A stretch of 39,157 nucleotides of DNA from Anaerolineales bacterium. GTDB taxonomy: Bacteria; Chloroflexota; Anaerolineae; Anaerolineales; UBA4823. Location: contig JAFGBV010000112.1 in the NCBI GenBank assembly GCA_016932955.1, positions 1 to 39,157 on the forward strand, given 5' to 3'. The notes beneath the pieces were generated by a model. It worked only from the letters and a program-made list of their open reading frames with translations, did not search any database and had not been told where the DNA came from. The position numbers were made by a program, and so were the translations under genes. Positions 3,034-29,479 of the stretch are shown one piece after another (position 1 is the first letter of the stretch; each line of letters starts with the position of its first letter).

Positions 3034-3041
3034 GATCTCGC

Positions 3042-11273: not shown

Positions 11274-14200
11274 ATGAGCAAGGATCAAACCCCAAGAGAA
11301 GCGCAACAAAGCTCTGATGGTTCTACGCCAGGAGCCACAAGAGCTTATGATCAGCCGGTTGACCAGAAGATTCTTGCCCTGGCTGAAGCGTCGGTTGCAT
11401 CGGATTGGAAGGTCGGTGATCTGATCCTGGATACCTATGAAGTAAGAGGCGTCTTGGGGGAAGGCGGTATGGGTGTCGTTTATATGGTTCACCATATGCG
11501 TTGGGATATGGATCTGGCGGTAAAATGCCCCAAGCCGGAAGTTTTTCTTACAACCAATGGGAAAGATAACTTCATACGCGAATGTGAGACCTGGATAAAC
11601 CTGGGGCTGCACCCACACATCGTGTCTTGTTACTACGTACGTACTTTAGGTGGCACGCCGCGCGTCTTCGCGGAATATGTACAAGCGGGCAGCTTGAAGG
11701 AATGGATTGCGAGTCACAGACTGTATGATGGAGGAAAAGAGAAAGCCATTAAACGGATGATAGATATTGCGATCCAGATAGCCTGGGGATTGAATTATGC
11801 ACACGAGCAGGGAGTAGTACACCAGGATGTTAAGCCCGCGAATGTGATGATTGCCTCTGATGGTACCGCTAAGGTGACTGATTTTGGTATGGCGAAGGCG
11901 CAAGCAGCGGCGGGAGTGGTGGTTCAAACTGGTCAGAGCATCCTGGTTAGCTCGGGAGGCTTGACACCGGCCTATTGTTCGCCCGAGCAAGCTGATCACC
12001 AACCCTTATCGCGTGAAACGGATATCTGGAGCTGGGGAGTGAGTGTCCTGGAGATGTTCACCAGTGAGGTGACCTGGTTATCCGGAGTAATTGCGCCGGA
12101 GGCATTGAAGGATTTTTTGAAAATGAAAGCAAAACGAGATGATATTCCCGAGATTCCAGGCAGCATTGTAAATCTCTTAATGCAGTGTTTTCAAAATAAC
12201 CCTGAAGATAGGCCAGCGAATGCAGGGGTCATCACAGCGAAACTGAGGGAGATCTACCAGCAAGAGACGGGGGATGTTTACCTTCGTGCCGACCCGGCAG
12301 GGTTGGAATTGATGGCGGATAGCCTGAACAACCATGCTCTTTCGCGGCAAGACCTGGGAGATGAAGATGGGGCCCATCAACTCTGGCAGAAAGCACTGGA
12401 AGCAGATCCGTTGCATCTGGAAAGCATCTATAATCTGGGTCTGCAAAACTGGCGGCACGGGGAGATCTCCGATCTTGAACTGCTGACAACGCTACGACAG
12501 ACTGGCGCTTCCGGAAAGGACAATCGTCAACTTGCCTGGATGCAAGCTCAAGTAGATCTGGAGAGAGGTGATTTTGAAGCTGCCTACCAGGGACTGATTA
12601 AATTACCGGAAGGAGAACATACTCACCCAGATATTGCGCCGTTATTGCAGCGAGTGACCGATCTACGACCAGGTACAGAAATTAGTCGGAGCTTTAGCAT
12701 GGGACATACCAATTTCGTGACTTGGGTCAGCTTGAGTACCGACGGGCGCTTGGCTCTATCAAGGAGCTGGCAGTATCTGATCTTGTGGGATGTATCCACC
12801 GATCAACATGTGCGTACATTTGAGGGAATAGAAAATGTCAACTCCTTCTGCATGAGCGCAGATGGAAGCCTAATTCTCCTGGGAAGAGATAATAACACCC
12901 TGGTGCTTCTGGAAGTGGCCAGCGGGAGATTCTTGCGCACCTTTAAGGGACATACTGATATCGTGAACTCAGTCAGCCTGAGCGCAGACGGACGCCTTGC
13001 CCTTTCAGGTAGTCGAGATAATACCCTCAAACTGTGGGATGTGCCCAGCGGGGCATGTTTACGCACTTTCTATGGACATACCAGCGCGGTGAACTCAGTC
13101 TGCCTGAGTGCAGATGGACAACTGGCTGCTTCAGGTAGTTACGATAGAACTCTGAAACTGTGGGAGGTTTCCAGCGGGGAATGCCTGCGTACTTTTTTAA
13201 CTGGACACTGGGATTCGATAACTTATGTTGATTTGAGTGCAGATGGATGCCTGGCTATCTCAAAGGGTAAGGACGGCAACCTGAAACTGTGGGATGTTTC
13301 CAGTGGCCGATGTCTGCGCACCCTACAGATATTTGGGCCTGCCTGTATGAGCGCAGATGGCTGCTATCTCCTTACTGGGAATGGAGATAAAACCTTGAAA
13401 TTATGGGAAGTCGCCAGGGGAAGATGTCTGCGCACTTGGACTTGTACCCACCCCGAACATACCGTTGAATCAGTCTACCTGAGCAAAGATGCACGCTTTG
13501 CACTCTCTGGTAGTTTGGAAGGCAGCCTGATATTGTGGAAATTGGACCCAGAAAGGGATTCTTATAGTGCTCATCCGGTATTTAGCCGTGTAAGCCTGAC
13601 CCAGGATATGGATGAGAGCCATGCGCTATTCATGCAGAAAATGGAGGATGCCAGACAGGCACTTGTACAGAATAACGACCGGATTGCCCTGTCCAGCCTA
13701 AAACTGGTTCGCGAAATCCAGGAGTATGTGAGGAATGCCGAGGCGATGGAACTCTGGAAGGCGTTGTATATCCGGCAGGTGAAATCCAATTTCTCTACCG
13801 GGTGGCAAGCATCTGTCAACTACGAATTCCTCAACGGCTGGCCACCGAACTCTATTTGCCTGAGCGCGGATGGGCGTCTGGCACTCTCTGGTTTTTCTGA
13901 CAATACCCTAAACCTTTTGGATGTGTCCAGCGGGAGATGCCTGCGCACCATCACTATATCCGGTGATAATTTTGGGAACACAGTTTTTTTGAGCGCAGAT
14001 GGGCAGATGATCCTTTCAGGGGGAAAAAGTGATAAAACCCTGAAATTGTGGGATGCGCTCACCGGCAGATGCTTACGCACGTTCACGGGACATATCGATA
14101 GGGTGAACTCAGTCTACCTGAGCGCTGACGGAGATCTGGCCCTTTCTGGAAGTAACGATATGACCCTGAAAGTGTGGGAGGTGTCCAGCGGGAAATGCCT

Positions 14201-14978
14201 GCGTACCTTGCAGCGGCACTCTGGCGGGGTATTCTCAGTCTGTTTCAGTGCAGACGGACGCTATGCTCTATCCGGGAGTGGAGATAAAACCTTGATCATG
14301 TGGGATGTATCGAGCGGTCAATGCCTGCGAACCTTGAAAGGACACGCTGGCGTGATTACTTCAGTCTGCCTGAGCACAGACGGGCGCTACGCCCTCTCCG
14401 GGAGTATAGATAAAACCCTGAAGCTGTGGGATATACCCAGCGGGAAATGCCTGCGAACTTTCGTGGGGCATACCCAACCGGTGACCTCAGTTTGCCTGAG
14501 CCTGGATGGGCGCTTTTCCATCTCGGGCAGTTACGACAAGACCCTGAAATTATGGGAGGTATCCAGCGGTCAATGTCTGTACACCTTTGAAGGGCACTTC
14601 GGTAAAGTAAACACAGTTTGTCTGAGTATGGATGGACGCCTGGCCATCTCGGGTAGTGATGACGGTACCATGAAATTGTGGGTTCTGGATTGGAACCTGG
14701 AAGTGCACGAACCGGCGGATTGGGATGAAAGAACCAGACCTTATCTGACCAATTTTTTAACCTTGCATAGTTCACTGACCATAAAAAGCGAAGGGCTTCT
14801 CGGATTGAAAAAGGTCTATGTTTGGGAATTACCCATATGGGACGAGAATGATTTTCAGGAACTGCTCTTCACCCTGGGTTGTGCGGGCTACGGCTGGCTG
14901 CGTCCGGAGGGCGTACGCCATGAACTGGAGAAGATGGCCGGCGAATGGCAGGGCCCGCCCCGGCTGCCTGGCACATAG
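11274..14978 (+). CDS. Ser/Thr protein kinase with TPR and two seven-bladed WD40 propellers
   Basis: This 1234-aa protein starts at an ATG with AGGAGA 5 bases upstream. The kinase (about 55-325) has GEGGMGVVY, the ATP lysine in LAVK, catalytic loop HQDVKPANV and VTDFG. The loop has HQD instead of HRD, which is unusual for a bacterial Hanks-type kinase. TPR-like helices (about 350-460) follow an IYQQETGDVY linker. Seven WD40 repeats (about 472-760), a helical linker (about 765-850) and seven more (about 851-1140) follow, many ending LKLWDVSSGxCLRT. The last 90 residues contain ENDFQELLFTLGCAGYGWLR, shared with the downstream paralogue and unknown to me. No membrane segment is present, so it is probably a cytoplasmic signalling scaffold. 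It is the first gene of a three-kinase plus-strand operon. Confidence 0.92.
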   Translation: MSKDQTPREAQQSSDGSTPGATRAYDQPVDQKILALAEASVASDWKVGDLILDTYEVRGVLGEGGMGVVYMVHHMRWDMDLAVKCPKPEVFLTTNGKDNFIRECETWINLGLHPHIVSCYYVRTLGGTPRVFAEYVQAGSLKEWIASHRLYDGGKEKAIKRMIDIAIQIAWGLNYAHEQGVVHQDVKPANVMIASDGTAKVTDFGMAKAQAAAGVVVQTGQSILVSSGGLTPAYCSPEQADHQPLSRETDIWSWGVSVLEMFTSEVTWLSGVIAPEALKDFLKMKAKRDDIPEIPGSIVNLLMQCFQNNPEDRPANAGVITAKLREIYQQETGDVYLRADPAGLELMADSLNNHALSRQDLGDEDGAHQLWQKALEADPLHLESIYNLGLQNWRHGEISDLELLTTLRQTGASGKDNRQLAWMQAQVDLERGDFEAAYQGLIKLPEGEHTHPDIAPLLQRVTDLRPGTEISRSFSMGHTNFVTWVSLSTDGRLALSRSWQYLILWDVSTDQHVRTFEGIENVNSFCMSADGSLILLGRDNNTLVLLEVASGRFLRTFKGHTDIVNSVSLSADGRLALSGSRDNTLKLWDVPSGACLRTFYGHTSAVNSVCLSADGQLAASGSYDRTLKLWEVSSGECLRTFLTGHWDSITYVDLSADGCLAISKGKDGNLKLWDVSSGRCLRTLQIFGPACMSADGCYLLTGNGDKTLKLWEVARGRCLRTWTCTHPEHTVESVYLSKDARFALSGSLEGSLILWKLDPERDSYSAHPVFSRVSLTQDMDESHALFMQKMEDARQALVQNNDRIALSSLKLVREIQEYVRNAEAMELWKALYIRQVKSNFSTGWQASVNYEFLNGWPPNSICLSADGRLALSGFSDNTLNLLDVSSGRCLRTITISGDNFGNTVFLSADGQMILSGGKSDKTLKLWDALTGRCLRTFTGHIDRVNSVYLSADGDLALSGSNDMTLKVWEVSSGKCLRTLQRHSGGVFSVCFSADGRYALSGSGDKTLIMWDVSSGQCLRTLKGHAGVITSVCLSTDGRYALSGSIDKTLKLWDIPSGKCLRTFVGHTQPVTSVCLSLDGRFSISGSYDKTLKLWEVSSGQCLYTFEGHFGKVNTVCLSMDGRLAISGSDDGTMKLWVLDWNLEVHEPADWDERTRPYLTNFLTLHSSLTIKSEGLLGLKKVYVWELPIWDENDFQELLFTLGCAGYGWLRPEGVRHELEKMAGEWQGPPRLPGT

Positions 14979-14995
14979 CGTAGAAAGGATGATTG

Positions 14996-17900
14996 ATGAA
15001 CAATAATCAAATGCAAGGAAAAAATCCTCAAATACCTGATTCTACCCAACAGGCAACAAAAGCCTACAGCTGGCAGGCAGATCAGAATGCACTGGCCCAG
15101 AATGAAGCATTGGTTGCTCCGGTATGGGAAATTGGTGACGTCATTCTTGATCTGTACGAAATCAAAGAACTGTACAGCGGAGGCGGAATGGGCCTGGTGT
15201 ATAAGATCCATCACCGAGGTTGGGACGCTGACCTGGCGGTGAAAAGCCCGCGCACGGAGTACTTCCAGACCGATGAGCACCGGAAAAACTTCGTCCGCGA
15301 AGCTGAAACCTGGGTAAACCTGGGGTTGCATCCGCACATCGTGTGTTGTTATTATGTTCGCACCCTAGGAGGCATCCCGCGCGTGTTTGTTGAGTACGTC
15401 GAGGGCGGCAGTTTAAAGGAATGGATAGACCGGCGAACGTTATACCAGGGTGGACAGGAGCAAGCGCTGGAGAGGATGCTGAATGTGGCGATCCAGTTTG
15501 CATGGGGATTGCAATACGCGCACGAGGCCGGGCTGGTGCACCAGGATGTGAAACCCGCCAATGTGATGATGAAGCCGGATGGCACGGCGAGAGTGACGGA
15601 CTTCGGCCTGGCCAAGGCGCGCAGCACGACCGGTGAAGTGCCAATCATGGCAAACCAGAGCATCTTGATGAGCGCGGGTGGTATGACCCCCGCATATTGC
15701 TCACCGGAGCAAGCCGAGCACCAGCCACTCACCCGCAAGACAGATATCTGGAGTTGGGGTGTCTCGATACTTGAAATGTTCGTGGGTGAAGTGACCTGGC
15801 TGGCTGGGCAGGCAGCTGCGCAAGCACTGTCCGGTTACCTGGAGACCGGGCCGGAAGACAAGGCGATTCCAGCGATGCCTGCTGCTTTATCTGCCCTTCT
15901 CCAGCGGTGTTTTCTGCATAATCCAGATGAGCGCCCCAGGGATATGGTAGTAATTGCAGCCACAATGCAGCAGATTTATGCCCGGGAAACCGGGCAGGCC
16001 TATGCGCGGCCTGCGCCGCAAGCTTCCGAGCTGCAGGCAGACAGTATAAATAACAAGGCCTTGTCGCTCTACGACTTGGGCCACACAGCTGAAGCGGAAG
16101 CACTCTGGCAGAACAACCTAAAGGCCAACCCGATGCATCTTGAAACCTGCTATAACCTGGGTCTAGTGGAGTGGCGCGCCTCGAAAAAAGACGACCTGAA
16201 GTTTTTGAAAGATCTACAGGCCGCAACTGCCTCACAGGATGATTGGCGTTTGGGCTGGCTGATGAGTCAGGTACATTTGGAGCGCAGGGACATTGTTCAG
16301 GCAGCGGCGATTTTGGAAAGGTTGCCTAAGGATGCAACCGCCCGCCCGGAAGTGGCCACAGTGCTTCGCCACGCTGGAGAATTTTCCAGGCCAAAGCCCC
16401 GGCTGGGCTGGACAGAGACTGAATATGCGGGAAATGTGAACTCTGTTTGCCTGGATGCGGTTGGGCGTAATGCCCTCTCGGGGAGCAATGATAATACACT
16501 TTCGCTATGGGATGGAGCCACCGGTGATTGCGTGCGCACATTTGTTGGGCATGGGGATGTAGTCGAATCCGTTTGCCTGAGCGTGGACAGGCGGTTTGCT
16601 CTATCGGGGAGCAGCGATTGCACCCTCAAATATTGGGAGGTAGCCACCGGGAGGTGCCTGCGTACCCTCGTAGGGCATACATATTCTGTGAACTCCGTCT
16701 GCCTGAGCGCGGATGGGCGGTATGCCCTTTCGGGCAGCGGGGATAACACCCTCAAGTTCTGGAATGTCTCGTCAGGCCAGTGTATGCGGACGTTCACTGG
16801 GCATACAAATGGATTGTTATCTGTCTGCCTGAGCCTGGATGGGCGGTATGCCCTTTCGGGGAGCGCGGATAAGACTCTAAAGCTCTGGGAATTGGCCACG
16901 GGGAAGTGCCTGCGAACGTTTACAGGGCATACGGAATTTGTGAACTCTGTCTGTCTGAGTGCGGATGGTTGCTACGCACTCTCAGGAAGCAATGATAGGA
17001 CACTCAAGCTCTGGGAAGTGGCGACCGGGAAATGCGTACGTACGTTTATAGGACACTCGAATTATGTTCTTTCCGTGTGCCTAAGTGCGGATGGACGGTA
17101 TGCGCTTTCGGGGAGCGAGGACAATACCCTCAAACTTTGGGAAGTGGCAACCGGGAGGTGTGTGCGAACGTTTGAAGGACACTCAAGCTGGGTTCTTTCT
17201 GTGAGTCTGAGCGCAGATGGGAGGTATGCACTCTCGGGATGTGATTATGCAATCTCGGGCAGCGGGGATCATACCCTTAAACTCTGGGATGTCTCGCCGG
17301 AATATTGTGCGGCGTTTGCTGTCTCGCATATCGTCACCAGCGCCACCGCTTCCCAATTTGAGCGTTTGCTGGCAGAAGCGCAGGCGGCCCGGCAACGTGG
17401 CGAGCGTGAGGCTGAACTGCGCGCCTTGCAGAATGCCAGGCTGGTGCCCGGTTACGAACACAACCCTGAAATCAGAGAAGCATGGAGCCAACTCTCCCGG
17501 CAGGTGCGGCGTGCTTCGTTGCGAGCCGGTTGGCTTGCACGCACATTTATTGGGCACGTGGATGGAGTCAATTCAGTGTGCCTGAGTGTGGATGGACGGT
17601 ACGCTCTCTCGGGGAGCGGAGAAATATACCCAGACTCGCAGGGCACAAAATATTGCCTGAAGCTCTGGGATATGGCAACGGGGAAATGTTTGCGGACGTT
17701 TGAAGGGCATAGATCCCTGGTGACCTCGGTGTGTTTTAGCGCGGATGGGCGGTATGCCTTCTCGGGGAGCGAAGATAATACCATCAAGCTCTGGGAGTTA
17801 GAAACGGGAAAGTGTTTGAGAACGATCGAAGGGCACACTTCTAAGGTAATGTCCGTGTCCCTGAGTAGGGATGGACGGTATTGTTTCTCAGCGAGCTTGG

Positions 17901-18814
17901 ATAAAACTCTTAGGCTGTGGGACATTTCGGCTTTGCTCAATGATGCTGTGGGAACGGCCAGGTGTTTGTGGGTTTACGAAGGGCATGGGGACGAATATCA
18001 TCGCACCGTTTGCATAAGTGCAGATGGGCGCTTTGCGCTCTCTGGAAACAATGATAAAACCATCCAGCTTTGGGAATTGGCGACAGGTCAGCTTGTGCGG
18101 ACATTGGCAGGTCATGGAGCCGTAGTCCAATCCGTATTCCTGGGTGGGGATGGGCGCTATGCGCTCTCAGGAAGTTTCGATAAGACTCTCAAACTTTGGG
18201 AGGTGGCGACGGGTCGGTGTTTGCGGACATTCGAAGGTCATACCCATTATGTAAACTCCGTGTGCCTGAGTGCGGATGGACAGTATGCGCTCTCAGGAAG
18301 CAAAGATACAACCATCAAGCTCTGGGATGTGGCAACGGGTCAGTGTCTGCGGACTTTTGAAGGGCACGCGAATAGTGTGATCTCCGTGTGCCTGAGCGGA
18401 GATGGGCGGTATGCGCTCTCGGGAAGTGAGGATAAGACACTCAGACTCTGGGAGCTGGATTGGGAACTGGAAGATATCCCGCTGGCCGATTGGGATGAAG
18501 GTGCACGGCCATACCTACAAAACTTTCTCACTTTACGTACGTCAGTTGCCGGTGAACTTCCCCAGGGTCCCAGTCCAACCGAAAAAGAAACCAGCCATGT
18601 GCTTACGCGGCGCGGCAAACCTGGTTGGAATGAAGATGATTTCCAGCAGCTGCTCTATATGCTTGGCTGCGCGGGTTATGGCTGGCTGCGGCCGGAAGGT
18701 GTGCGGAAGGAACTTGAGCATATGTACGAAGAGAGTCAAGCTCCATCGTCGCTGAAAGAGCAGACCTCTCCAAGCAAAGGTTCCTGGATCTCTCGCCTGC
18801 TTGGAAAACAGTAA
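14996..18814 (+). CDS. Ser/Thr protein kinase with TPR and two WD40 propellers (paralogue 2)
   Basis: The ATG at 14996 is preferred over an in-frame TTG three bases upstream because AAAGGA lies 5 bases before it; this gives 1272 aa. It has the same order as the upstream gene: kinase (about 53-330, SGGGMGLVY, LAVK, HQDVKPANV, DFG), TPR-like segment, seven WD40 repeats (about 476-768), a helical linker rich in Ala/Glu/Arg, seven more repeats (about 850-1155), and the tail EDDFQQLLYMLGCAGYGWLR. Blades are very similar to one another at DNA level (for example those around 16690-17170), which suggests recent repeat duplication or homogenisation. Blade 7 contains an extra partial repeat (YALSGCDYAISGSGD). 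The glycine loop is degenerate at its first glycine. It lies 17 bases after its paralogue, so the pair arose by tandem duplication. Confidence 0.92.
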   Translation: MNNNQMQGKNPQIPDSTQQATKAYSWQADQNALAQNEALVAPVWEIGDVILDLYEIKELYSGGGMGLVYKIHHRGWDADLAVKSPRTEYFQTDEHRKNFVREAETWVNLGLHPHIVCCYYVRTLGGIPRVFVEYVEGGSLKEWIDRRTLYQGGQEQALERMLNVAIQFAWGLQYAHEAGLVHQDVKPANVMMKPDGTARVTDFGLAKARSTTGEVPIMANQSILMSAGGMTPAYCSPEQAEHQPLTRKTDIWSWGVSILEMFVGEVTWLAGQAAAQALSGYLETGPEDKAIPAMPAALSALLQRCFLHNPDERPRDMVVIAATMQQIYARETGQAYARPAPQASELQADSINNKALSLYDLGHTAEAEALWQNNLKANPMHLETCYNLGLVEWRASKKDDLKFLKDLQAATASQDDWRLGWLMSQVHLERRDIVQAAAILERLPKDATARPEVATVLRHAGEFSRPKPRLGWTETEYAGNVNSVCLDAVGRNALSGSNDNTLSLWDGATGDCVRTFVGHGDVVESVCLSVDRRFALSGSSDCTLKYWEVATGRCLRTLVGHTYSVNSVCLSADGRYALSGSGDNTLKFWNVSSGQCMRTFTGHTNGLLSVCLSLDGRYALSGSADKTLKLWELATGKCLRTFTGHTEFVNSVCLSADGCYALSGSNDRTLKLWEVATGKCVRTFIGHSNYVLSVCLSADGRYALSGSEDNTLKLWEVATGRCVRTFEGHSSWVLSVSLSADGRYALSGCDYAISGSGDHTLKLWDVSPEYCAAFAVSHIVTSATASQFERLLAEAQAARQRGEREAELRALQNARLVPGYEHNPEIREAWSQLSRQVRRASLRAGWLARTFIGHVDGVNSVCLSVDGRYALSGSGEIYPDSQGTKYCLKLWDMATGKCLRTFEGHRSLVTSVCFSADGRYAFSGSEDNTIKLWELETGKCLRTIEGHTSKVMSVSLSRDGRYCFSASLDKTLRLWDISALLNDAVGTARCLWVYEGHGDEYHRTVCISADGRFALSGNNDKTIQLWELATGQLVRTLAGHGAVVQSVFLGGDGRYALSGSFDKTLKLWEVATGRCLRTFEGHTHYVNSVCLSADGQYALSGSKDTTIKLWDVATGQCLRTFEGHANSVISVCLSGDGRYALSGSEDKTLRLWELDWELEDIPLADWDEGARPYLQNFLTLRTSVAGELPQGPSPTEKETSHVLTRRGKPGWNEDDFQQLLYMLGCAGYGWLRPEGVRKELEHMYEESQAPSSLKEQTSPSKGSWISRLLGKQ

Positions 18815-18857
18815 GAGGTCATCACACTTCACATCAAGGCATTTTATAGGAGGTCTC

Positions 18858-20345
18858 ATGCCGGGTAAAATCATGCTCAAAGCCACCCAGGGCAAATCTC
18901 AAGGCAAGGAATTCGCCTTTTACGAACACGATACCTTTCTATTTGGACGGATGGACGATTGCCATATCTGCCTGCCAGACGATCAGCGTGTCTCTCGCCA
19001 TCATTTCATCTTGGAAGTCAATCCACCCGATGCCCGCCTGCGCGACCTGGGCAGCTTGAATGGCACCTATGTTAATGGTCGGAAATACGGTGGTCGCGAG
19101 AAAACCGAAACGCCCGAGGAAGGTGCCAAGCATGAGCATCCACAAGTAGACCTGCGCGATGATGATGAAATCAGGGTCGGGGATACCCTCTTGAAGGTGG
19201 CAGTCGAACTGCCGATGGAGTGTGTGGAATGCGGTGTGGAGATTCCAGAAGTGGCTCGCGAAGCATGCGCGTGGGTGGGTAAGACGTATATCTGCACACG
19301 CTGCAGACTAAAACTCGAGCAGGCAAACAGACCCCCGGCAACCCCAATGCCACCCGCACCGCTGCACTGCCAGAAGTGCGGTCGAGATGTTTCGTTTGAA
19401 GTTGGCCCAGGTCGCCACGGCGATTACATTTGTGAGACCTGCCGACGGCAGGTTCAAGATGATCCAATGGCACTCCTCAAGGGATTACTCCAGGGGGTTC
19501 GAAAGCCAGAGATGGGGAAACTCCAGATTCCGGATTATGAGATTGAAAAAGAGCTGGGAGTGGGAGGCTTTGGCGCAGTATACCTAGTGAGACATATAAA
19601 ACAAGGCACGCGAGCAGCTCTCAAGATCATGCTCTCAAAAGTAGCGGTAGATGAACGAAACCGGCAGACCTTTCTGCGTGAAACCGAAAACATGCGTAAG
19701 TTACACCACCAAAATATCGTCGAATTTCTAGACTGCGGCTCAGCAGGTGGTGTCTTTTATATTGTGTTGGAATATTGCGAGGGCGGCAGTGTGGGTGATC
19801 TGATGAACCGTCGTGGTGGCTGGCTGGGGCTGGATGAAGCCGGGCTAATCATGCTGCAAGCTTTGAAGGGGCTTGCCTTCGCCCATACAAAGGGCTTTGT
19901 TCACCGCGACCTCAAACCCCAAAATGTGTTGCTGACACAGAAAGAAAAACCACGAACAGCAAAGATTGCCGATATGGGGCTGGCAAAGAATTTCGCTCAG
20001 GCTGGTTTCAGTGGCATGACAGCCACTGGCAGTTTCGCGGGTTCATTTCCGTTTATGCCGCGCGAACAGATCACAAACTTCAAGTTCGTCAAACCGGTCA
20101 GTGATGTCTGGTCCATGGGAGCTACTTTATACAACATGCTTACCGGTCAGTACCCACGGGACTTCAAGCTTGGGCAAGATCCAATGGAGGCGATTCTAAA
20201 CGGCGAAATAATTCCAGTGAGTAAGCGCAGTTCCAAAATACCCAGACAGGTGGCAGAAGTAATCGATCGTGCCCTATCCAACAAGACCAGCGATCGTTTT
20301 CAAGATGCAGGGGAAATGCTCCGGGCGCTAGAAAAGGTATTGTGA
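18858..20345 (+). CDS. FHA - double zinc-ribbon - Ser/Thr kinase
   Basis: The ATG at 18858 has AGGAGG upstream. A longer in-frame start at 18801 would overlap the previous gene, and the FHA fold begins only after 18858. The 495-aa protein opens with an FHA domain (about 1-105, FGRMDDCHICLPDDQRVSRH, LGSLNGTYVNG), a phosphothreonine-peptide reader. Two Cys4 ribbon-like units follow (CVEC...CTRC and CQKC...CETC, about 115-195), then a kinase (about 225-490) with GVGGFGAVY, AALK, HRDLKPQN and DMG in place of DFG (IADMGLAK). It ends the plus-strand operon, 43 bases after the WD40 kinase. By its domains it could read autophosphorylated neighbours and relay the signal. Its kinase is more distant from the other five. 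Confidence 0.92.
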   Translation: MPGKIMLKATQGKSQGKEFAFYEHDTFLFGRMDDCHICLPDDQRVSRHHFILEVNPPDARLRDLGSLNGTYVNGRKYGGREKTETPEEGAKHEHPQVDLRDDDEIRVGDTLLKVAVELPMECVECGVEIPEVAREACAWVGKTYICTRCRLKLEQANRPPATPMPPAPLHCQKCGRDVSFEVGPGRHGDYICETCRRQVQDDPMALLKGLLQGVRKPEMGKLQIPDYEIEKELGVGGFGAVYLVRHIKQGTRAALKIMLSKVAVDERNRQTFLRETENMRKLHHQNIVEFLDCGSAGGVFYIVLEYCEGGSVGDLMNRRGGWLGLDEAGLIMLQALKGLAFAHTKGFVHRDLKPQNVLLTQKEKPRTAKIADMGLAKNFAQAGFSGMTATGSFAGSFPFMPREQITNFKFVKPVSDVWSMGATLYNMLTGQYPRDFKLGQDPMEAILNGEIIPVSKRSSKIPRQVAEVIDRALSNKTSDRFQDAGEMLRALEKVL

Positions 20346-20444: not shown

Positions 20445-22376
20445 CTAATCTGATCCGATACTTGTCAAAAGTTGGGCTTCATAAGCGCGCTCATAGAAGG
20501 AAACTGCCTCTCCAAAACACTTCATTTGGATCAGACAGCGCGCTTTTCCTAACAGCGCATCTTCCAAGTAAGGATTATTCTGAATAGCTGCATCATAGCA
20601 CTGGATGGCCTCGTCGAAGAGCCCGCTGAACTCCATGCACAGCCCCTTGCCCTGCCAGGCCGGAGAGAATGCATCTACCTGTTCCAGGGCTTTATCATAG
20701 CAACGATATCCTTCCTCATAATTCCCCAAGGCCACCTGCGAAGCCCCCCTGGCAACCCAGTCTAAGTGGGTTAGCTCCTCAGATTTACTAACCATATTAT
20801 AAGATTCGCCTGTCGCCTGCTCATAAATATGAACCAATTCCAACAATATCTCCTCGAAAGAGGAGTAGCGCTCATCCGGCGACTTTGCCAGGCAGCGCTT
20901 TATAAGCTCAGACAACTCTTTTGGGATATCTTTATGTTTCCGACGAGGTTCTTCAGGAGTAGATGAGAAAATTTCCTGTACTGAAGTAAATGGCAAGCTG
21001 CCGGTAAATAACTCATATAGAAGAACGCCAAAAGAATATACATCTGAGCGGACAGACACAGGTCGTGGAGTAACCCCATGATGAATTTGCACCTTCTCGG
21101 AGAATTGCTCCGGTGGCATGTAGGGCCATGTCCCCATGCCACGCGACATCTGCGTATCGTTAATGTCTAAATCATCGTTGACTGTTGCTTTCCAAATGCC
21201 CGCAAGCCCAAAGTCGGTTACTTTGGCTGCATAACCATACCGGAAACGGTTATCCTTTGCTAAAAGAACATTTGCTGGCTTGATATCGCGGTGCACAATA
21301 CCAGATTTGCAGTAGGCGTAACTCATCCCCGTGCAAAACTGTATAGCGTAATCGAGCGCCTGGGCTACAGGTAGCTTACCCACCCACTGACCAAGATCCC
21401 CTCCATCCGCATATTCCAAAAATAGGAACGGTTTCCCGCCGATTTCCCGAACCAATAAAGCGAAAATAATGTTAGTATGTCTTTCTAGGTCCATCCAGGT
21501 GCGAGCTTCGGTAATAAAGCGCTGGACGGCCTGTTGGTCTTCTATCAATTCATCATTCAGTTCTTTTACTGCAAAGATCCTGCCGTCCCGCAGCACGAAC
21601 GACACCTTTCCCATTCCGCCTTGCCTGACAGACAAAACGTAAAAATCTTCAAGTGGATTGCCTTCGCCCACCTTGGTAACGCCTCTAGAGCCTCGAGCGG
21701 ATTTTATTTTGGGCTGAGTGGAACTTGTTTCCAAGTTCGAAAACACCTCTGATAACACACGGCCAAGCTGGTAGTTTACCCTGTTTAGAGCTTCCGATTG
21801 GTGCTCCAGGGCAAGGTTCAATTGGGCGGAGGCAGCATGCAACCTTTCGACTAATTCTGGGCTCATACTGGCGGGGAGATCTTTTTCCAGATATTGGGTA
21901 ACATAGGCTAAACGGCGCGCACTTTCCAATGAGGTAATCTTTTGTTTGTCATTGGGGTCTTGCTCGTGCTCCTGAGCTTCCTTTTGCATTTTCTCAATAT
22001 CTATCTGGTTCAGACCATTCGCAGCCGTTACAGTGATCTTCTGGCCTTTACCTGTGGCTAGATCGTAAGCAGAAACATTCAGAACACCATTGGCATCTAT
22101 ATTTATGGACACCTTGACCTGCACAGCGCCACGAGGAGCTGCGGGTAGCTCATCCAAGATGAATGATCCCAGATGCCGATTGCGATTGGCCAACTGGCTT
22201 TCGCCTTGAAGGAGATTAATCGCCATTTTTGTCTGCAAATCGGATGCTGTGGTGAATACCATGCTTTTCTGGCAAGGAATCACAGAGTTGCGCTCAATCA
22301 ATTTGCGAGATAGATTGCCAGTGGTGCGAATTCCCAATGACAATGGAGTTACGTCAAACTCGAGAACATTTCCCAT
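20445..22376 (-). CDS. Hsp70 substrate-binding domain - Ser/Thr kinase - TPR fusion
   Basis: The 643-aa protein begins MGNVLEFDVTPLSLGI, which is the Hsp70 interdomain linker and the first strand of the DnaK substrate-binding domain. The match continues (KLIERN, QTKMAINLLQGE, LGSFILDELP, INIDANGVLNVSAYDLATGK) through about residue 115, with a helical lid-like region to about 210. The Hsp70 ATPase domain is absent, and an in-frame stop lies just upstream. A kinase follows (about 245-515) with RQGGMGKVSF, FAVKEL, HRDIKPANV and VTDFG, then a YEQATGESY linker and three TPRs (about 540-640). I infer a kinase whose input is an unfolded or hydrophobic peptide bound by the DnaK-type pocket. It lies 117 bases downstream of the Clp gene and is convergent with the FHA kinase. 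Confidence 0.93.
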   Translation of the reverse strand: MGNVLEFDVTPLSLGIRTTGNLSRKLIERNSVIPCQKSMVFTTASDLQTKMAINLLQGESQLANRNRHLGSFILDELPAAPRGAVQVKVSINIDANGVLNVSAYDLATGKGQKITVTAANGLNQIDIEKMQKEAQEHEQDPNDKQKITSLESARRLAYVTQYLEKDLPASMSPELVERLHAASAQLNLALEHQSEALNRVNYQLGRVLSEVFSNLETSSTQPKIKSARGSRGVTKVGEGNPLEDFYVLSVRQGGMGKVSFVLRDGRIFAVKELNDELIEDQQAVQRFITEARTWMDLERHTNIIFALLVREIGGKPFLFLEYADGGDLGQWVGKLPVAQALDYAIQFCTGMSYAYCKSGIVHRDIKPANVLLAKDNRFRYGYAAKVTDFGLAGIWKATVNDDLDINDTQMSRGMGTWPYMPPEQFSEKVQIHHGVTPRPVSVRSDVYSFGVLLYELFTGSLPFTSVQEIFSSTPEEPRRKHKDIPKELSELIKRCLAKSPDERYSSFEEILLELVHIYEQATGESYNMVSKSEELTHLDWVARGASQVALGNYEEGYRCYDKALEQVDAFSPAWQGKGLCMEFSGLFDEAIQCYDAAIQNNPYLEDALLGKARCLIQMKCFGEAVSFYERAYEAQLLTSIGSD

Positions 22377-22493
22377 GACAGGCTCACTCCCTAGAAGGCA
22401 AGAATATCACGTTTGCACAACAATATTGGAAAAACCGATGCCTAAGCCAAGAGCATTCCAATAGGTTATGCACATTTTACTCTTTGCCCTTGA

Positions 22494-24863
22494 CTACAGG
22501 GGAACGAAAGCCAGAGCTTCCCCATCACTGACAAGCCGCCATTTCCTTTGTTTGGCAAAATTTCCGCCCAGAATCAACTTGCTTAATGGCACCTGGACCA
22601 GTTTATCTACTGTCCGGCGAAGTTCCCGCGCGCCGTATTGCGTGCTATATCCGGCGTGGGCGAGAAATATTTCAGCCTGTTCATCAACCTGCAGGGAAAC
22701 CTGGTGTTGTTCTTGAAGGTTCTCGCAGATCTCCTTGAGCATCGGGTTCAGAATTTGTCTTAAGTCACCTTCATCTAGGGAACGGAAGGTGATCTGTTCA
22801 TCGATGCGGTTGATGAACTCGGGGCGGAATTTCTTGGCAACTTCCTGTAGCGCGGAATCGCCGGTCTTCTCAAAATCCAGAAAACCCAGTCCGGCGTGTT
22901 TTTTAACGGATATATTGGAGGTCATGATAAAGATGGCATTCCTGGCATCTGCCGTGCGGCCTTTCGAGTCAGTCAGGCGTCCTTCCCCAAAAACCTGCAG
23001 AAATAAGTCAAAGATACGCGGGTGAGCCTTTTCGACCTCGTCGAGCAGCACAATCGTGTAAGGCATCGTACGCAGTTTGCCGGTCAGTTGTCCCTCTTCC
23101 TCATGACCGACATAACCAGGAGGGGAGCCGATCAGCCTGGCAACACTATGCTCCTCCATGTACTCGGACATGTCCAGACGGATCATCTCGGACGCATTGC
23201 CAAAGAGGAATTCGGCTAACGAACGGGCAATCTCCGTTTTCCCAACCCCGGTAGGGCCTAAAAACAGGAAGACCGCCAGAGGTCCCTGCCTCCTTACCAA
23301 GCCGGCATGCGCCATAAGCAACCGCTGGCAAACACGCTCGATCGCATCATTCTGGCCGACTACTTTCTTTTTCAGGTATGCTTCCAATTCGAGTAGCCGG
23401 GATTGGTTCATTCCTTCCAGGTGCCCCATAATCACTTCCAGGGGTACACCGATCTTTTCCGCCAGAACCTGGGCGATGGTGATCGCGTTGACTTCACTGT
23501 TCAACTCGTTGATCCCCGTTGGATCCGCCGGCAAGTTTCCCATTCCATCCCCGCGCATACTGAGCACGGGGATCCGGGTGCGTGCGGCGGCTTTATCTAC
23601 GAGGTCAATCGCTTTATCGGGAAGCTGGTGATCGCCGTCGAAACGAATGGAGAGATTCACGGCGGCCTGAAGAGCCTGGTCGGCGATGCGCACCCGATGA
23701 TGTTCCTCCCATTTTTGCCGTAAACCCTTAAGTATCTCCAAAGCCTCCACTGGGCCGGGTTCGTTGATGACGATCTTCTCGAAGCGCCGCTCCAACGCCG
23801 AGTCTGATTCGATGAAACGACGGTATTCGGTGATGGTGGTCGCACCGATGCAGCGTAGATCGCCGCGCGCCAGAGCCGGTTTCATCAGTTGGGCAGCATC
23901 CATGCTGCCTTCGGCCCGTCCGGCGCCCACTACGGTATGGATCTCGTCAATAAAGAGGATCACTTCCGGGTTTGCACGCGCCTCCTCCAGGATGTGTGTC
24001 AACCGCTCCTCGAATTCGCCGCGGAATTTTGTTCCGCCGGTTAGGGCACCCATGTTCAACTCGATGATGCGCTTGCCGCCCAGGATCTGTGAGTCTTTCC
24101 CTTGGACAGCACGTACCGCCAGTGCCTCCACAATCGCTGTCTTACCCACTCCAGCTTCGCCTACTAGCACCGGGTTGTTCTTGGAACGGCGCGCCAGGGT
24201 CTGGATCACCTGCAGCAATTCCTGCCGGCGTCCGATGAACGGGCCCAGCTTACCCTCCCGGGCGGCCTGGGTTAGATCGCGCCCGTAGCGTTCCAAGAAA
24301 TGCGGTCCGTCCTGGGCTGGTTGGGGTGTACCAGGTTGGACTCTGATTGGTTCGCCATCTGCCGGTGCAGGGGAAGGGAACTTCGCCATAACAGCTCCCA
24401 ACAGTGCGCCAGGCTTTACCCCAGCTTCTTCCAGCACAGAGGAGACGACCGCAGAGGGCTGCTCGAGGATTCCTGCCAGGAGGTGGATGCAAGTGGTCTC
24501 GTTACCCCCGCCAGCCAGTTCACTGGCGCGCTGAAAGAATTGTTTGCATGCCGGGCTGCGGTGAACGATTCTGTCGGCGTTCTGGATGTTACCTCTTCCC
24601 AACCTCTGGCGTATCAAGCGTCTCAGCGAAGTTGTATCGAGCTCGAATGCACTCAGGATCTCCTCGATGGCGGTTGTCTCAACATAGAGCGCTTTTCGAG
24701 AGAGCGGATCCAGGTCATTCGCCGCGCCACTCAGTTGGATCTTCTCTAAGCTGCATATGCCGATTAGAAGATGCTCCACTTCAATCAGAGGATGCTTACC
24801 AGCGGCTGCTTCCTGAGCGGATATCTGCCAGGCGGCGGAGGCTGTGAAGGATAGTCCTTTCAT
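22494..24863 (-). CDS. ClpC/ClpA-like double-ring AAA+ unfoldase lacking the long middle domain
   Basis: The 789-aa Clp/Hsp100 ATPase has an N-domain (about 1-160) and D1 with Walker A GEAGVGKT (235-242) and Walker B VILFIDE (301-307). D2 has GPTGVGKT (536-543), IVLLDE (604-609) and RPEFINRID. Only a short linker of a few tens of residues follows D1 (about 425-465), so the coiled-coil middle domain of ClpB is missing. In D2, AGLGF (about 657-661) sits where ClpA/ClpC carry the ClpP-binding G-F/L loop, so docking to ClpP is possible. The substrate is unknown. It is embedded between kinase genes, 38 bases after the 892-aa kinase, implying co-expression. A housekeeping clpC elsewhere in the genome is likely, making this a specialised paralogue. 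Confidence 0.9.
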   Translation of the reverse strand: MKGLSFTASAAWQISAQEAAAGKHPLIEVEHLLIGICSLEKIQLSGAANDLDPLSRKALYVETTAIEEILSAFELDTTSLRRLIRQRLGRGNIQNADRIVHRSPACKQFFQRASELAGGGNETTCIHLLAGILEQPSAVVSSVLEEAGVKPGALLGAVMAKFPSPAPADGEPIRVQPGTPQPAQDGPHFLERYGRDLTQAAREGKLGPFIGRRQELLQVIQTLARRSKNNPVLVGEAGVGKTAIVEALAVRAVQGKDSQILGGKRIIELNMGALTGGTKFRGEFEERLTHILEEARANPEVILFIDEIHTVVGAGRAEGSMDAAQLMKPALARGDLRCIGATTITEYRRFIESDSALERRFEKIVINEPGPVEALEILKGLRQKWEEHHRVRIADQALQAAVNLSIRFDGDHQLPDKAIDLVDKAAARTRIPVLSMRGDGMGNLPADPTGINELNSEVNAITIAQVLAEKIGVPLEVIMGHLEGMNQSRLLELEAYLKKKVVGQNDAIERVCQRLLMAHAGLVRRQGPLAVFLFLGPTGVGKTEIARSLAEFLFGNASEMIRLDMSEYMEEHSVARLIGSPPGYVGHEEEGQLTGKLRTMPYTIVLLDEVEKAHPRIFDLFLQVFGEGRLTDSKGRTADARNAIFIMTSNISVKKHAGLGFLDFEKTGDSALQEVAKKFRPEFINRIDEQITFRSLDEGDLRQILNPMLKEICENLQEQHQVSLQVDEQAEIFLAHAGYSTQYGARELRRTVDKLVQVPLSKLILGGNFAKQRKWRLVSDGEALAFVPL

Positions 24864-24901: not shown

Positions 24902-27580
24902 CTAGCCACCCAATCTCTGCAAACGTTGCCGGGCAATCTCGATTTTACTTGCATATTGAGGTGTCGCGAGCGAAAGGAATTGCTGATAGGATCGTAGAGC
25001 AGCTTTTGGTAGATTATTATAATCTTCAGAACTCGCCTTGATGAACCAGGCGTCGATATGGCGCGGATTCAACTCAAGTACTTTATTAGCACAGGAAATT
25101 GCATCATCAAACCGGAACAGCAAGAAATAGCATTGTGCTTTATTGCTCCAGGCAAATACAAGATTGGGATTTAGATCAAGTGCTTTGTCGGAATAGGAAA
25201 TTGCTTCTGTATATCGCTTAAGAAGCATGGCACACATTCCTTTGTTATTAAACGCCATAACATTTTGAGGATCCAACTCAAGCACTTTATCAAAGCACAT
25301 AAGTGCTTCTTCATTAGGTCTGAACTTGGTGAGACAATTTCCCTTATTAAACCAGGCAATTAGCAAACCAGGGTCCAATTCAAGGGCCTTGTCATAACAC
25401 ACCAGGGCTTCTTCAAAACGGCCCAGTGCATCAAGGCTATTCCCTTTATTAACCCAAGCGGCAGTTAAGGACGGGTTTAATTCAAGTGATTTTTCAAGGC
25501 AATAAATCGCCTCATCGAAAAGGCCACGCTGATTAAGATCGTTTCCTTTGTTGTTCCAAGCTTCTGCAGTTATCGGATCGGGGGTATTGGCTCTGCTTAC
25601 AGGCATCTTAATTTGGGTAAGTCTTTCACGAGCAAACCCCAATAATTGCGCCCATTGGCACGAATTTGCCTGTTGGGCAGGCACCAAGGCGATGAATCGC
25701 TGGTAGGAATCCGTAGCATCCGGGATTTTGACAGCCTCCTCCTCTGATAAACCTTTGTAGAACCAAACTAAAGCTTCTTGTGGTTCAATTTTCAAAGCTT
25801 TTTCATAACACTGTATGGCCTCGTTGAAATTCTTGAGTTGGTGTAGACAATTCCCTTTGCTGACCCAAGCTTTAGCGTTACTTGGGTCAAGCTGGAGTGC
25901 TTGGTTATTGCACTGAACCCCCTCCTCGAAACGATCAAGGTCAGTGAATGTAAGGCCTTTGTAGTACCAAGCTAGAGTATAAGCAGGATCGATCTCAAGT
26001 GATCTACTGTAGCAACTGATTGCTTCATCAAATTGTCTCAGGCTTCTTAGGCAGACCCCTTTTTCATACCAGGCTCTTGCATCTCTGGGATCAATCTTGA
26101 GAATTTGATTGTAACAATCAATAGCTTCAGAAAACCGATTGAGGCAGGCAAGGCAATTACCCTTATTCTGCCAGGCGCTAGTGTACCGTTGGTCACGCTC
26201 AAGAGCCATTTCAAGGCAACCGATCGCTTCATCGTAACGACCAAGCGTGTAAAGGGCTCCTCCCTTATTGCTCCAGAACATTGCAAGGGAAGGATCAAGC
26301 GCGAGAGCGTGGTCCAAATAACCAAGGGCTTCTTCTTTGCGACCTAGCGCGATCAGGCACTGCCCTTTGTTATTCCAAGCCATTGCCAGGTGCGGGTCAA
26401 TCTCCAAAGCTTTTTCATAGCATAGGATGGCCTCCTCATGCCGAGCCAGACTATCCAAACTTGCGCCCTTGTTGATTAACTCCCCGGTCTCTAATTCCTT
26501 CAACTGTGGAAGAATGATTTCTTCTCCGGTCTGATTCTTCAGTATCGGTTCCAGATCACCTCGCACATCTTTGAAAGCCTGGTACCGCTTCTCCGGTGAC
26601 TTCTCAAGACAGCGCTGGATAATCGGAAACAGAGGCGAGTTCAAGTGCGGTACGGGGGAATCACGATGAAGCTGGTACATCGTCTGTAAAAACTCTACCA
26701 TTGCTTGGCCAGAATTATCTTTTGGTAAAGGGGCAAGGAAGGGCAATCGATTGGCTGCTGCCATCTGGTAGAGAATGATCCCAAAGCTGTAGATGTCGCT
26801 GCGTTCATCACACCCGGCGGCATTTTCGAATTGTTCCGGGGGCATGTGGGTGGGAGTGCCAAACCCAACTCCAAGCATCGTCTGTCCGGAGAGAGCAGGT
26901 CCTTTCGATCGAGCTCCCAAACCGACTGAGCCCATTGTTGGTGATTCACTGAGCACACCTGCCAGACCGAAATCTGTGATCTTGACGGTTTTATCCTGGC
27001 TGATCATTATGTTGGCCGGTTTTAGGTCACGATGGGCGCGCACGCCTTTTGAGTAAGCATATTCCATGCCGTGGCAGATCTGGATTGCCCATCGCAGACT
27101 CTGCGTCAGGTCAGGAGGCCGCTGCTGCAGGTAGCCATCTAGTGTATTTAACCCCTCAACATTTGGGGCGATGTATTCCATCGCTATAAAAATCCTGCCG
27201 GATATCTCGTCCACGTAACTGGCCCGTACCAGGTAGGGGTGACGCCCAAGCTCGATCCAAATACTCGCCTCCCGATGGAAACGCTTTCTAACCTCTTGAT
27301 CTGAAAGATATTCACCTAGGAAGGTTTTCAGAGCGTATATTTCTCCTCTTCCGTAGGAATCAACCGAATTGACCAGATACACAATGCCAAAACCGCCTTT
27401 GCCCAATACTCTGTAGACTTCATATTTCTGACCGATAAAATCCCCTTTCTGGAATGTTGCTGTTGGTTGGGGATATTGCTCTGGTGTTAAGTTTGGCGCA
27501 GCCACTCGGTCTAGCCTTGGTTCCGATTGAGAGACTTTCTTGAATAACTTACTAAACCATTTACCAGAAGAATCGCTCAT
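24902..27580 (-). CDS. Ser/Thr kinase with two TPR arrays (14 repeats)
   Basis: The 892-aa protein has a short N-tail (MSDSSGKWFSKLFKK) and a kinase at about 50-345 with GKGGFGIVY, YALK, AHRDLKPANI and ITDFG. A LKNQTGEEI linker leads to TPRs from about 368. Eight repeats (KG-C-L/ALE-DP pattern) are followed by a capping segment ending AQLLGFARERLTQI, then six more repeats and a second similar cap (IEIARQRLQRLGG). The internal cap indicates that two complete arrays were joined. TPRs bind peptide partners, so this is probably the main protein-docking kinase of the cluster. A GGAAG ribosome site lies 8 bases upstream of the ATG. The gene lies 69 bases after the 609-aa paralogue and 38 bases before the Clp gene. 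No membrane segment is present. Confidence 0.92.
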   Translation of the reverse strand: MSDSSGKWFSKLFKKVSQSEPRLDRVAAPNLTPEQYPQPTATFQKGDFIGQKYEVYRVLGKGGFGIVYLVNSVDSYGRGEIYALKTFLGEYLSDQEVRKRFHREASIWIELGRHPYLVRASYVDEISGRIFIAMEYIAPNVEGLNTLDGYLQQRPPDLTQSLRWAIQICHGMEYAYSKGVRAHRDLKPANIMISQDKTVKITDFGLAGVLSESPTMGSVGLGARSKGPALSGQTMLGVGFGTPTHMPPEQFENAAGCDERSDIYSFGIILYQMAAANRLPFLAPLPKDNSGQAMVEFLQTMYQLHRDSPVPHLNSPLFPIIQRCLEKSPEKRYQAFKDVRGDLEPILKNQTGEEIILPQLKELETGELINKGASLDSLARHEEAILCYEKALEIDPHLAMAWNNKGQCLIALGRKEEALGYLDHALALDPSLAMFWSNKGGALYTLGRYDEAIGCLEMALERDQRYTSAWQNKGNCLACLNRFSEAIDCYNQILKIDPRDARAWYEKGVCLRSLRQFDEAISCYSRSLEIDPAYTLAWYYKGLTFTDLDRFEEGVQCNNQALQLDPSNAKAWVSKGNCLHQLKNFNEAIQCYEKALKIEPQEALVWFYKGLSEEEAVKIPDATDSYQRFIALVPAQQANSCQWAQLLGFARERLTQIKMPVSRANTPDPITAEAWNNKGNDLNQRGLFDEAIYCLEKSLELNPSLTAAWVNKGNSLDALGRFEEALVCYDKALELDPGLLIAWFNKGNCLTKFRPNEEALMCFDKVLELDPQNVMAFNNKGMCAMLLKRYTEAISYSDKALDLNPNLVFAWSNKAQCYFLLFRFDDAISCANKVLELNPRHIDAWFIKASSEDYNNLPKAALRSYQQFLSLATPQYASKIEIARQRLQRLGG

Positions 27581-27649: not shown

Positions 27650-29479
27650 CTAGCCGATTAATTCCTTGAGGCGCTTACGGGCATATTCGATTCTTTTTAC
27701 ATCCGATGCAGGGGCAAGTTCCAGGTAATGTTTATAAGATAAGATTGCATCCTGCCTTCGGCCAATTTTATCCTCGGACAATGCTTTATTGTAATGGGCA
27801 TTAACCTGGAGCGGGGCAAGCTCAAGAACTTTATCAAAACTACGGAGCGCCTCTTCGTATCGTCCTAGGGTGTGGAGACTGTTTCCTTTGATGAACCAAG
27901 CCTCAAAATCTGCTGGATCGATTTTTAGGGCCTGTTCAAGGCAGATGATGGCTTCTTCGCTGCTTCCTAGGTTAAAAAGACTGAGACCTTTGTTGTACAA
28001 GGCATCTCGAAGGCCGGGGTCAATATGCAGGGCATCATTTAAATAGCGAATAGCCTCATTGTAACGGCCAAGCGAATTGAGACTATTGCCCTTATTTATT
28101 AACGTACTGATATGGTTTGGATCGAACTGCAAGGCCTTGTCATAACAACTGATGGCGTCTTCGAAACGGCCGAGCCCATGCAGGCTATTTCCTTTGTTGT
28201 TCCAGGCTTGGACACTAAGCGGATCTAACTTCAGGGCCTGGTCAAGGCTGAGTATGGCATCTTCGTACCGCCGAAGCTTGTTTAGACTATTCCCTTTATT
28301 CGCCCAGATCGCTGTAAGATTTGGGACAAGATTCAAGACTTGGTCATAATATGCAATGGCTTCTTCATAGCGCCCCAGGCTATCAAGACTGACCCCTCTG
28401 TGGCACCATTCCAAAACCCCAGATTCATTCGATTGTGGCGGAATGATCACTTCCCCAGTGTGATCTTTCAGTAGTTTTTCCAGATCTTGGCGCGCCTCTA
28501 AAAATGACTGGTATCTCTTTTCAGGAAGTTTATCCAGGCAGCGCCGGATGATGGGGGAAAGGGGGGAATCCAATGGCGGAACAGGTGACTGCGCGTGCTG
28601 TCTTCGTATCTCCTTCCAGAAATCTGCGCCTATGGGAGCTAGGAACGGCAATTTCCCGCGGCTGGCCATCTGAAAGAGTATGACCCCAAAACTATAAATG
28701 TCGCTGCGCTGATCACATCCGGCAGCATTGTCGAACTGTTCTGGAGCCATGTGAGTGGGAGTACCAAACCCTTGTCCATAGATGGTTTGGATTGCGCGGA
28801 TGGTTCCATTAAGTCCGGCGGCCAAACCAGGGCGTTGCACCGACGGCAATTCATTTAGTACACCTGCAAGGCCAAAATCGGTGATCTTGGCGGTCATATC
28901 TTTGCTGATCATGATATTGGCCGGTTTGAGGTCGCGATGGGCACGTACACCTTTGGAGTAAGCGTATTCCATGCCATGGCAGATGTGAATCGACCAACGC
29001 AGGCTTTGAGTCAAGTCAGGTGGATGCTGCTGCAGGTAACCATCCAGTGAGTTCAATCCATCTTCGTTTGGGGCAACATACTCCATCGCGATGTAAAGCT
29101 TGCCCGATACTTCATCAACATAATTGGCTTGTACCAGATGGGGATAGCTTCCGAGTTCTATCCATATGGTTGCTTCCTTATGAAAGCGCTTCCTGATCTC
29201 CTGGTCCGCGAGGAACTCATCTTGGAAAGTCTTCAGCGCATATTCTTTTTTCGTTTCGTGCGAATAGACCAGGTAAACGACCCCAAAGCCACCTTTTCCC
29301 AGGATCCCCTTGACCTCGTATTTCTGGCCGATGATATCCCCCTTTTTATAGGAAATGCCAGGCTGATGGTCGCCCAATTTGAATGGCATGGGACCGGCAG
29401 ATGTTCCCAGACCTTTATCTGGTTTGGACTTTCCTTTATTATCTGACCTGCGAAACCAGCTGCCAAAAAAACCACTCAT
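27650..29479 (-). CDS. Ser/Thr kinase with single TPR array
   Basis: The 609-aa paralogue of the next gene has an N-tail MSGFFGSWFRRSDNKG, a kinase (about 52-340: GKGGFGVVY, YALK, AHRDLKPANI, ITDFG) and a LKDHTGEVI linker. About seven TPRs follow (from about 355, repeated NKGNSL motif), ending in the cap IEYARKRLKELIG. Active-site residues are intact. The ATG at 29479 has GGAGA 6 bases upstream (TAGGAGATCAAG). It is the first intact gene of the minus-strand operon kinase-kinase-clp-SBD-kinase. A truncated third N-terminus lies immediately upstream. The repeats are highly alike, pointing to recent internal duplication. Cytoplasmic location is inferred from the lack of signal or membrane segments. 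Confidence 0.92.
   Translation of the reverse strand: MSGFFGSWFRRSDNKGKSKPDKGLGTSAGPMPFKLGDHQPGISYKKGDIIGQKYEVKGILGKGGFGVVYLVYSHETKKEYALKTFQDEFLADQEIRKRFHKEATIWIELGSYPHLVQANYVDEVSGKLYIAMEYVAPNEDGLNSLDGYLQQHPPDLTQSLRWSIHICHGMEYAYSKGVRAHRDLKPANIMISKDMTAKITDFGLAGVLNELPSVQRPGLAAGLNGTIRAIQTIYGQGFGTPTHMAPEQFDNAAGCDQRSDIYSFGVILFQMASRGKLPFLAPIGADFWKEIRRQHAQSPVPPLDSPLSPIIRRCLDKLPEKRYQSFLEARQDLEKLLKDHTGEVIIPPQSNESGVLEWCHRGVSLDSLGRYEEAIAYYDQVLNLVPNLTAIWANKGNSLNKLRRYEDAILSLDQALKLDPLSVQAWNNKGNSLHGLGRFEDAISCYDKALQFDPNHISTLINKGNSLNSLGRYNEAIRYLNDALHIDPGLRDALYNKGLSLFNLGSSEEAIICLEQALKIDPADFEAWFIKGNSLHTLGRYEEALRSFDKVLELAPLQVNAHYNKALSEDKIGRRQDAILSYKHYLELAPASDVKRIEYARKRLKELIG

Follow-up and report, generated by a model that had tools for sequence, protein, structure and literature searches.

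The window, by which we mean the whole stretch of 39,157 nucleotides analysed here, carries at least seven Ser/Thr kinase genes. Six of them lie between positions 11274 and 29479, two with WD40 repeats, one with an FHA domain, two with TPRs and one in which the kinase is joined to the substrate-binding domain (SBD) of an Hsp70, here called the SBD-kinase; a further one is found at the end (37715-39157). A Clp unfoldase is encoded among them (Table 1). Signs of mobile DNA are present around this kinase island, with transposition genes (TniQ and TniB), a Fic gene (SoFic model, PADLOC) and a phage-type integrase at 1363-4034, 7600-8751 and 31545-32495.

Table 1. Position of the SBD-kinase gene, its domains and its neighbours in the window
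Feature	Position	Strand	Remarks
WD40-repeat kinase	11274..14978	+	
Second WD40-repeat kinase	14993..18814	+	
FHA-domain kinase	18801..20345	+	convergent neighbour of the SBD-kinase, ends 99 bases away
SBD-kinase gene	20445..22376	-	643 aa; Hsp70 SBD followed by Ser/Thr kinase and TPR
C-terminal TPR helices	20463..20768	-	residues 537-638
Hanks-type Ser/Thr kinase	20817..21644	-	residues 245-520; K271, E290, HRD 362-364, N369 and DFG 388-390 in place
Lid-kinase tether	21663..21713	-	residues 222-238; low confidence, probably disordered
SBD-alpha helical lid	21726..22013	-	residues 122-217; R in place of the latch acid D540
Linker start and SBD-beta clamp	22026..22367	-	residues 4-117; shares 56 of 110 aligned residues with E. 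coli DnaK
In-frame TGA	22407..22409	-	11 codons upstream of the SBD-kinase ATG
Clp-type AAA+ unfoldase	22494..24863	-	next upstream gene, 117-base gap to the SBD-kinase
Kinase with many TPRs	24902..27580	-	38-base gap to Clp
Second TPR kinase	27650..29479	-	69-base gap

Clusters of a related make-up occur elsewhere. In a Dehalococcoidia MAG (L003/L109) the row consists of a TPR kinase, Clp, a WD40 kinase, a 257-aa ORF and an FHA kinase, and its Clp is 65% identical to the window Clp along its length; the SBD-kinase was not found in the genome of this MAG at E 1e-65. The 257-aa ORF between the WD40 and FHA kinases (L109 16294-17067) does not match any of the window parts with which the search was made. 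The genome G434 has a TPR kinase and then a Clp match spanning residues 1-482, while in a MAG named Methanoperedens Clp lies near a TPR kinase whose kinase domain is 47% identical to that of the window SBD-kinase. Since such clusters exist in these three genomes, the SBD-kinase looks like an extra member of a kinase-Clp cluster, which to judge from its matches is probably of chloroflexotal origin. The window Clp itself scores below the NCBIfam cut-offs for ClpB, ClpA, ClpV, ClpK and ClpG and resembles the Clp of L001 and L003. It has an LGF tripeptide in its second ATPase domain, which might be a ClpP-binding loop.

The SBD of the window protein is complete, with both the beta clamp and the helical lid, and begins at the interdomain linker. 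It spans positions 387-593 of the HSP70 profile, its beta domain aligns with that of DnaK without loop deletions, and a structural comparison agrees with the SBD fold. A sequence-only reading of this DNA had described an Hsp70 SBD starting at the linker and followed by a complete kinase and TPRs, and had named the structural comparison with the DnaK SBD as the check; these points are all borne out. The kinase fold is present together with the catalytic Lys and Glu, the HRD Asp, the Asn and the DFG Asp, and by sequence and model the protein is a Ser/Thr kinase with intact catalytic residues. Against the NCBIfam models for DnaK (NF001413) and HscA (TIGR01991) the window protein scores 185.4 and 132.9 bits, below the respective cut-offs of 648 and 708.55. 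It is not a PASTA kinase of the PknB/Stk1 type (167.8 bits for an NCBIfam cut-off of 450, with PASTA absent among the 11 Pfam families listed), nor the defence kinase MAD6 (111.8 bits to the NCBIfam model antiphage_MADS6, cut-off 460), and the PADLOC matches shown, which might have suggested a defence system, fall on the kinase part only.

What the protein lacks is the N-terminal actin-like ATPase domain (NBD) of an Hsp70, and none was found within the 39,157-nt window. The in-frame TGA located shortly upstream of the start codon excludes a hidden ATPase domain in that reading frame, as the sequence-only reading had maintained.

The window protein is not unique. A search of 5.8 billion proteins gave 3453 matches, and the best 120 of these contain 10 further proteins with both SBD and kinase (P0002-P0010 and P0016); a profile search with 120 matches listed returned the same 10, so that the family has at least 10 further members among the matches listed. 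Six of them are called without an ATPase domain (P0005, P0007, P0008, P0009, P0010 and P0016), although this is by gene call, and two of the six look partial, P0009 being without the clamp start and P0010 stopping inside the kinase. The remaining four (P0002, P0003, P0004 and P0006; 1022-1023 aa) do have an ATPase domain; one of these, P0004, is named as coming from a Chloroflexi MAG. The kinase catalytic residues are intact in all 11 members, with one further site, R503, gapped in P0010.

The ATPase domains of these four proteins are altered at sites that are nearly invariant in DnaK. We take D8, T11, E171, D194 and T199 (E. coli numbering) to be catalytic residues of the Hsp70 ATPase. The replacements D8S, T11L, T12S and K70Q occur in 4/4, while the DnaK comparison rows have D8 in 105 of 106, T11 in 107 of 107, T12 in 106 of 107 and K70 in 117 of 117 rows with a letter at the site, the 118 rows being proteins returned by the searches, many of them close kin and not a random sample. 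The transition state is stabilised by K70, which touches the gamma-phosphate (PMC8215388). In addition G198 and D201 are each lost in three of the four, and P0006 has D194N and T199S as well. On the other hand, E171 is still present in all four and D194 and T199 in three. With catalytic residues replaced in this way, the family ATPase domains would not run the normal Hsp70 cycle. Thus, as far as can be read from the sequences, the ATPase domain in the SBD-kinase family is either absent from the gene call or without its catalytic residues.

In a tree of the kinase domains, a branch with SH-aLRT 100 sets the 11 fusions apart, adjoining plain TPR kinases (P0011-P0015 and P0017-P0021), which are the nearest kinase plus TPR relatives and differ in having no Hsp70 domain listed. 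When a tree of 10 fusions (P0010 omitted) is rooted on these TPR kinases, the four ATPase carriers form a 100/99 clade nested among the rows called without ATPase, which implies that the ATPase domain was either gained once or lost at least four times. The clamp-only form might even be the older one on the kinase tree, with a dead ATPase domain gained later in one clade. The SBD tree places nine family rows in one starred clade; the position of P0016 in it is uncertain because of its long branch.

Three other proteins, P0059, P0258 and P0259, also have Hsp70 followed by kinase, as in the family, but contain a full Hsp70 and have no TPR domain listed. Their ATPase residues are present at the checked sites in P0059 and P0259, whereas P0258 has T199S and D201S, and their origin is likely separate from that of the SBD-kinases. 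The P0258 cluster has 14 members, with a longest contig of 486 kb. We also came across an Hsp70 C-terminal part, P0065 (on a contig of 1765 bases), with three consecutive SBD-beta-like copies after the end of an ATPase domain and three Pfam HSP70 stretches.

Wider searches did not add fusions to the family. Two scans of viral contigs gave pattern matches with no relative confirmed, and plasmids gave no match by tblastn at E 1e-40. Among the best 80 of 571 confirmed stretches on GTDB contigs none matched beta clamp and kinase together; three began within the lid (L046 at 170, L044 at 184 and L078 at 195), and in these tblastn of residues 1-225 at E 1e-15 did not find the clamp. No fusion was detected in 400 genomes of the phylum of G003 (E 1e-70), where two matched, one with the kinase side and one with the SBD side, or in 393 genomes of the class of G002 (E 1e-65), where 11 matched with one side only; in both scans up to only two or three candidates were scored per genome. 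When P0059 was used at E 1e-180 to search the genomes of 14 planctomycete loci, all 12 matches were limited to the Hsp70 part, and a protein search with part of P0016 gave, among 150 matches, P0016 itself and 119 Hsp70 proteins without a listed kinase domain. At nine betaproteobacterial loci (L023, L025, L027, L028, L030, L035, L037, L040 and L043) kinase and SBD matches are roughly 2 kb apart; for L023 and L027 the SBD match near the kinase is a full-length dnaK-like gene.

The sequence-only reading had stated that the clamp follows DnaK closely. As stated this is not supported: 56 of 110 SBD-beta residues are identical, but the central pocket, the arch, the linker and the lid latch are systematically changed. 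We compared the family with 124 DnaK SBDs, which were returned by the searches, are in many cases closely related and do not represent a random sample; P0065 was removed because of its triple SBD. Several counts are out of 10 rather than 11 members since P0009 lacks the first clamp residues. At position 436 in the central pocket, M is found in nine and I in two of the 11 members and V in all 124 DnaKs. Together with position 472 the members have M/V (nine) or I/I (two) and the DnaKs V/I (120) or V/V (four), a pairing that we read as a partial volume swap between two pocket walls, although the 11 rows are kin and the pattern corresponds to few events. The arch residue 404 is N, A, E, T or G in 10/10 members and L or M in 122/124 DnaKs, and the linker residue L391, present in every one of the 124, is kept in a single member out of 10. 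In the lid, an acidic residue (D or E) at the latch position 540 occurs in 1/11 members as opposed to 124/124 DnaKs; the alignment is anchored there by a Y at the nearby position 544 in all 11. N537 is kept in none of them, and R467, the salt-bridge partner of D540 in the latch, is still R in eight. Position 526 (D in 4/11 members and 124/124 DnaKs) was given no weight because the lid alignment has an indel at this site. The window protein has M436, V472 and T404 in DnaK numbering, with T and A forming its arch, so that the V436 and M/L404 of DnaK are both replaced, and of the R467-D540 latch it keeps R467 while position 540 is R.

Other parts of the pocket have been retained, namely T403, T428 and Q433 (10/10 members each), I or L at 401 (10/10) and F426 (8/10). 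Residues that contact the NBD in DnaK also remain in part, with R at 414 in 10/10, N415 in 8/10 and L484 in 9/11. For the groove as a whole we used 13 peptide-contact positions of DnaK (Zhu et al. 1996). These match DnaK at 0.50 compared with 0.55 in the remaining beta domain, and 3409 of 5000 random sets were equally high, which argues against a specially conserved groove. Of the 13 positions, PMC8604352 names 401, 403, 404, 426, 427, 428, 429, 436 and 472 as residues of the site, the arch or the backbone contacts, and PMC8215388 names 438. Overall the sequences indicate that the clamp of this family is re-cut at the central pocket, the arch, the linker and the lid latch.

The two residues that replace V436 in the family are the same as those found in the specialised E. 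coli paralogues: position 436 is M in HscA and I in HscC, and both lack N537 and D540. HscC retains its ATPase. HscA retains an active ATPase too, unlike the window protein; its sole known client is IscU, and the M at the V436 position makes its pocket much shallower (PMC8215388). According to the same review, good peptides bind DnaK with a 40-fold higher KD when it carries V436F, and the D431-H544/R467-D540 latch is weak in HscA, with one hydrogen bond left. Thus, like HscA, the window protein has M436 and has lost latch residues (D540 and N537 are replaced). There are also differences. R467, missing from both HscA and HscC, is retained by most SBD-kinases, and the large hydrophobic arch of HscA (M/F), which makes up for the shallow pocket (PMC8215388), is small or polar in the window protein. 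Moreover, its SBD-beta is nearer in overall sequence to DnaK than to HscA (47/110 identical residues), so that the likeness to HscA concerns functional sites and not descent. What is shared with DnaK is the SBD-beta and lid fold and the position of the linker; the ATPase domain, V436, M404, L391 and D540 of DnaK are altered or missing, and the kinase and the TPRs are additional.

It has to be considered how such a clamp could serve a kinase. The sequence-only reading suggested a direct sensor of unfolded peptides. As a general stress sensor, the clamp would recognise hydrophobic segments that become exposed in any misfolded protein, and this would turn the kinase on or off. Such a role would fit with the retained SBD fold and most of the hydrophobic floor, with the Clp unfoldase gene adjoining on the same strand, and with structure entries in which isolated DnaK SBDs were crystallised with peptides. 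However, V436 is M or I in 11/11 members, L/M404 is lost in 10/10 and the latch acid in 10/11, and changes of this kind accompany the restricted clients of HscA. We therefore consider a general sensor unlikely and, in view of the HscA- and HscC-like changes, less likely than a reader of one dedicated peptide. At the other extreme, the groove might no longer bind peptide at all and the SBD persist as a structural relic or scaffold, used for dimerisation or spacing of the kinase. The contact sites are conserved no more than the remaining sites and both arch and latch are gone, as one would expect of a relic, but the combination of M436 with V472 in nine members and I/I in two is a coupling not expected in a decaying pocket, even if the related rows stand for few events, and T403, T428 and Q433 are invariant in 10/10. 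We regard this as rather improbable.

It would be a quite different matter if the nucleotide cycle were supplied in trans, by an Hsp70 ATPase domain or a co-chaperone from another protein that still opens the clamp. The remaining NBD-contact residues (R at 414, N415 and L484) and the four relatives with an ATPase domain in cis are compatible with such a partner, yet the linker residue L391 is kept in just 1/10 members, the cis domains are without catalytic residues and no Hsp70 ATPase domain was found in the window, which makes the idea very improbable. Finally, since full-length relatives of about 1022 aa exist, the gene could be an assembly chimera or a truncated version of a full Hsp70-kinase. 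This can practically be dismissed given the in-frame stop and the complete Clp gene upstream, a GC3 that is alike in the clamp part (0.500) and the kinase part (0.498), and the independent relatives that are also called without an ATPase domain.

The explanation we prefer, and to which we give about an even chance, is that of a Ser/Thr kinase whose N-terminal Hsp70 SBD reads a dedicated peptide without ATP and thereby docks or switches the kinase. The preference over a general sensor comes from the changes in pocket, arch, linker and latch that resemble HscA and HscC. The clamp would reversibly bind one kind of extended peptide segment, and the weakened lid latch would permit peptide exchange without a nucleotide cycle. 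The re-cut pocket (M436/V472) and the small or polar arch would select fewer ligands than DnaK does, as in HscA. Peptide binding would then either present the bound protein as substrate to the tethered kinase or alter kinase activity. The TPRs may dock a partner, for which the Clp unfoldase and the other kinases of the cluster are candidates. Several points speak against a dedicated reader: R467 is retained in 8/11 members, the contact positions are not specially conserved and the likeness to HscA is limited to few sites. Furthermore, peptide binding by the window clamp could be weak or absent because both of its arch residues are small or polar, unlike the compensating large arch of HscA. A more complete version, in which the clamp has become a ligand-specific receptor, freed from its ATPase, loosened at the latch to equilibrium binding, re-cut at the pocket to fit a dedicated peptide and setting the kinase output by its bound state, is put forward tentatively and with some doubt.

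The combination of a kinase with Hsp70 has been known for some time. A protein of Pirellula sp. with a kinase and HSP70 homology (gi|32474490) has been in print since 2005; it resembles the proteins described here in joining a Ser/Thr kinase to an Hsp70-like domain, but with the HSP70 homology C-terminal to the kinase (PMC1262709). The converse case, a separated Hsp70 part that keeps the ATPase and is missing the clamp, occurs in a signalling or conflict setting, where HSP70 proteins without a peptide-binding domain belong to GTPase-centred conflict systems (PMC7159879). A literature search, which had most subscription papers outside its reach, did not turn up a paper describing a kinase that carries just the SBD of Hsp70. 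The sequence-only reading, whose author had not seen such a protein described, was thus too broad as regards kinase-Hsp70 fusions, while a clamp-only kinase is without an earlier description in the literature searched.

Hsp70 clamps are usually understood as working via nucleotide-driven opening. If the proposal made here is true, a naturally occurring family has retained the clamp in re-cut form, with its ATPase missing or dead. This would mean that the clamp can act as a plain receptor, and a chaperone peptide code would be tied to phosphorylation in bacteria.
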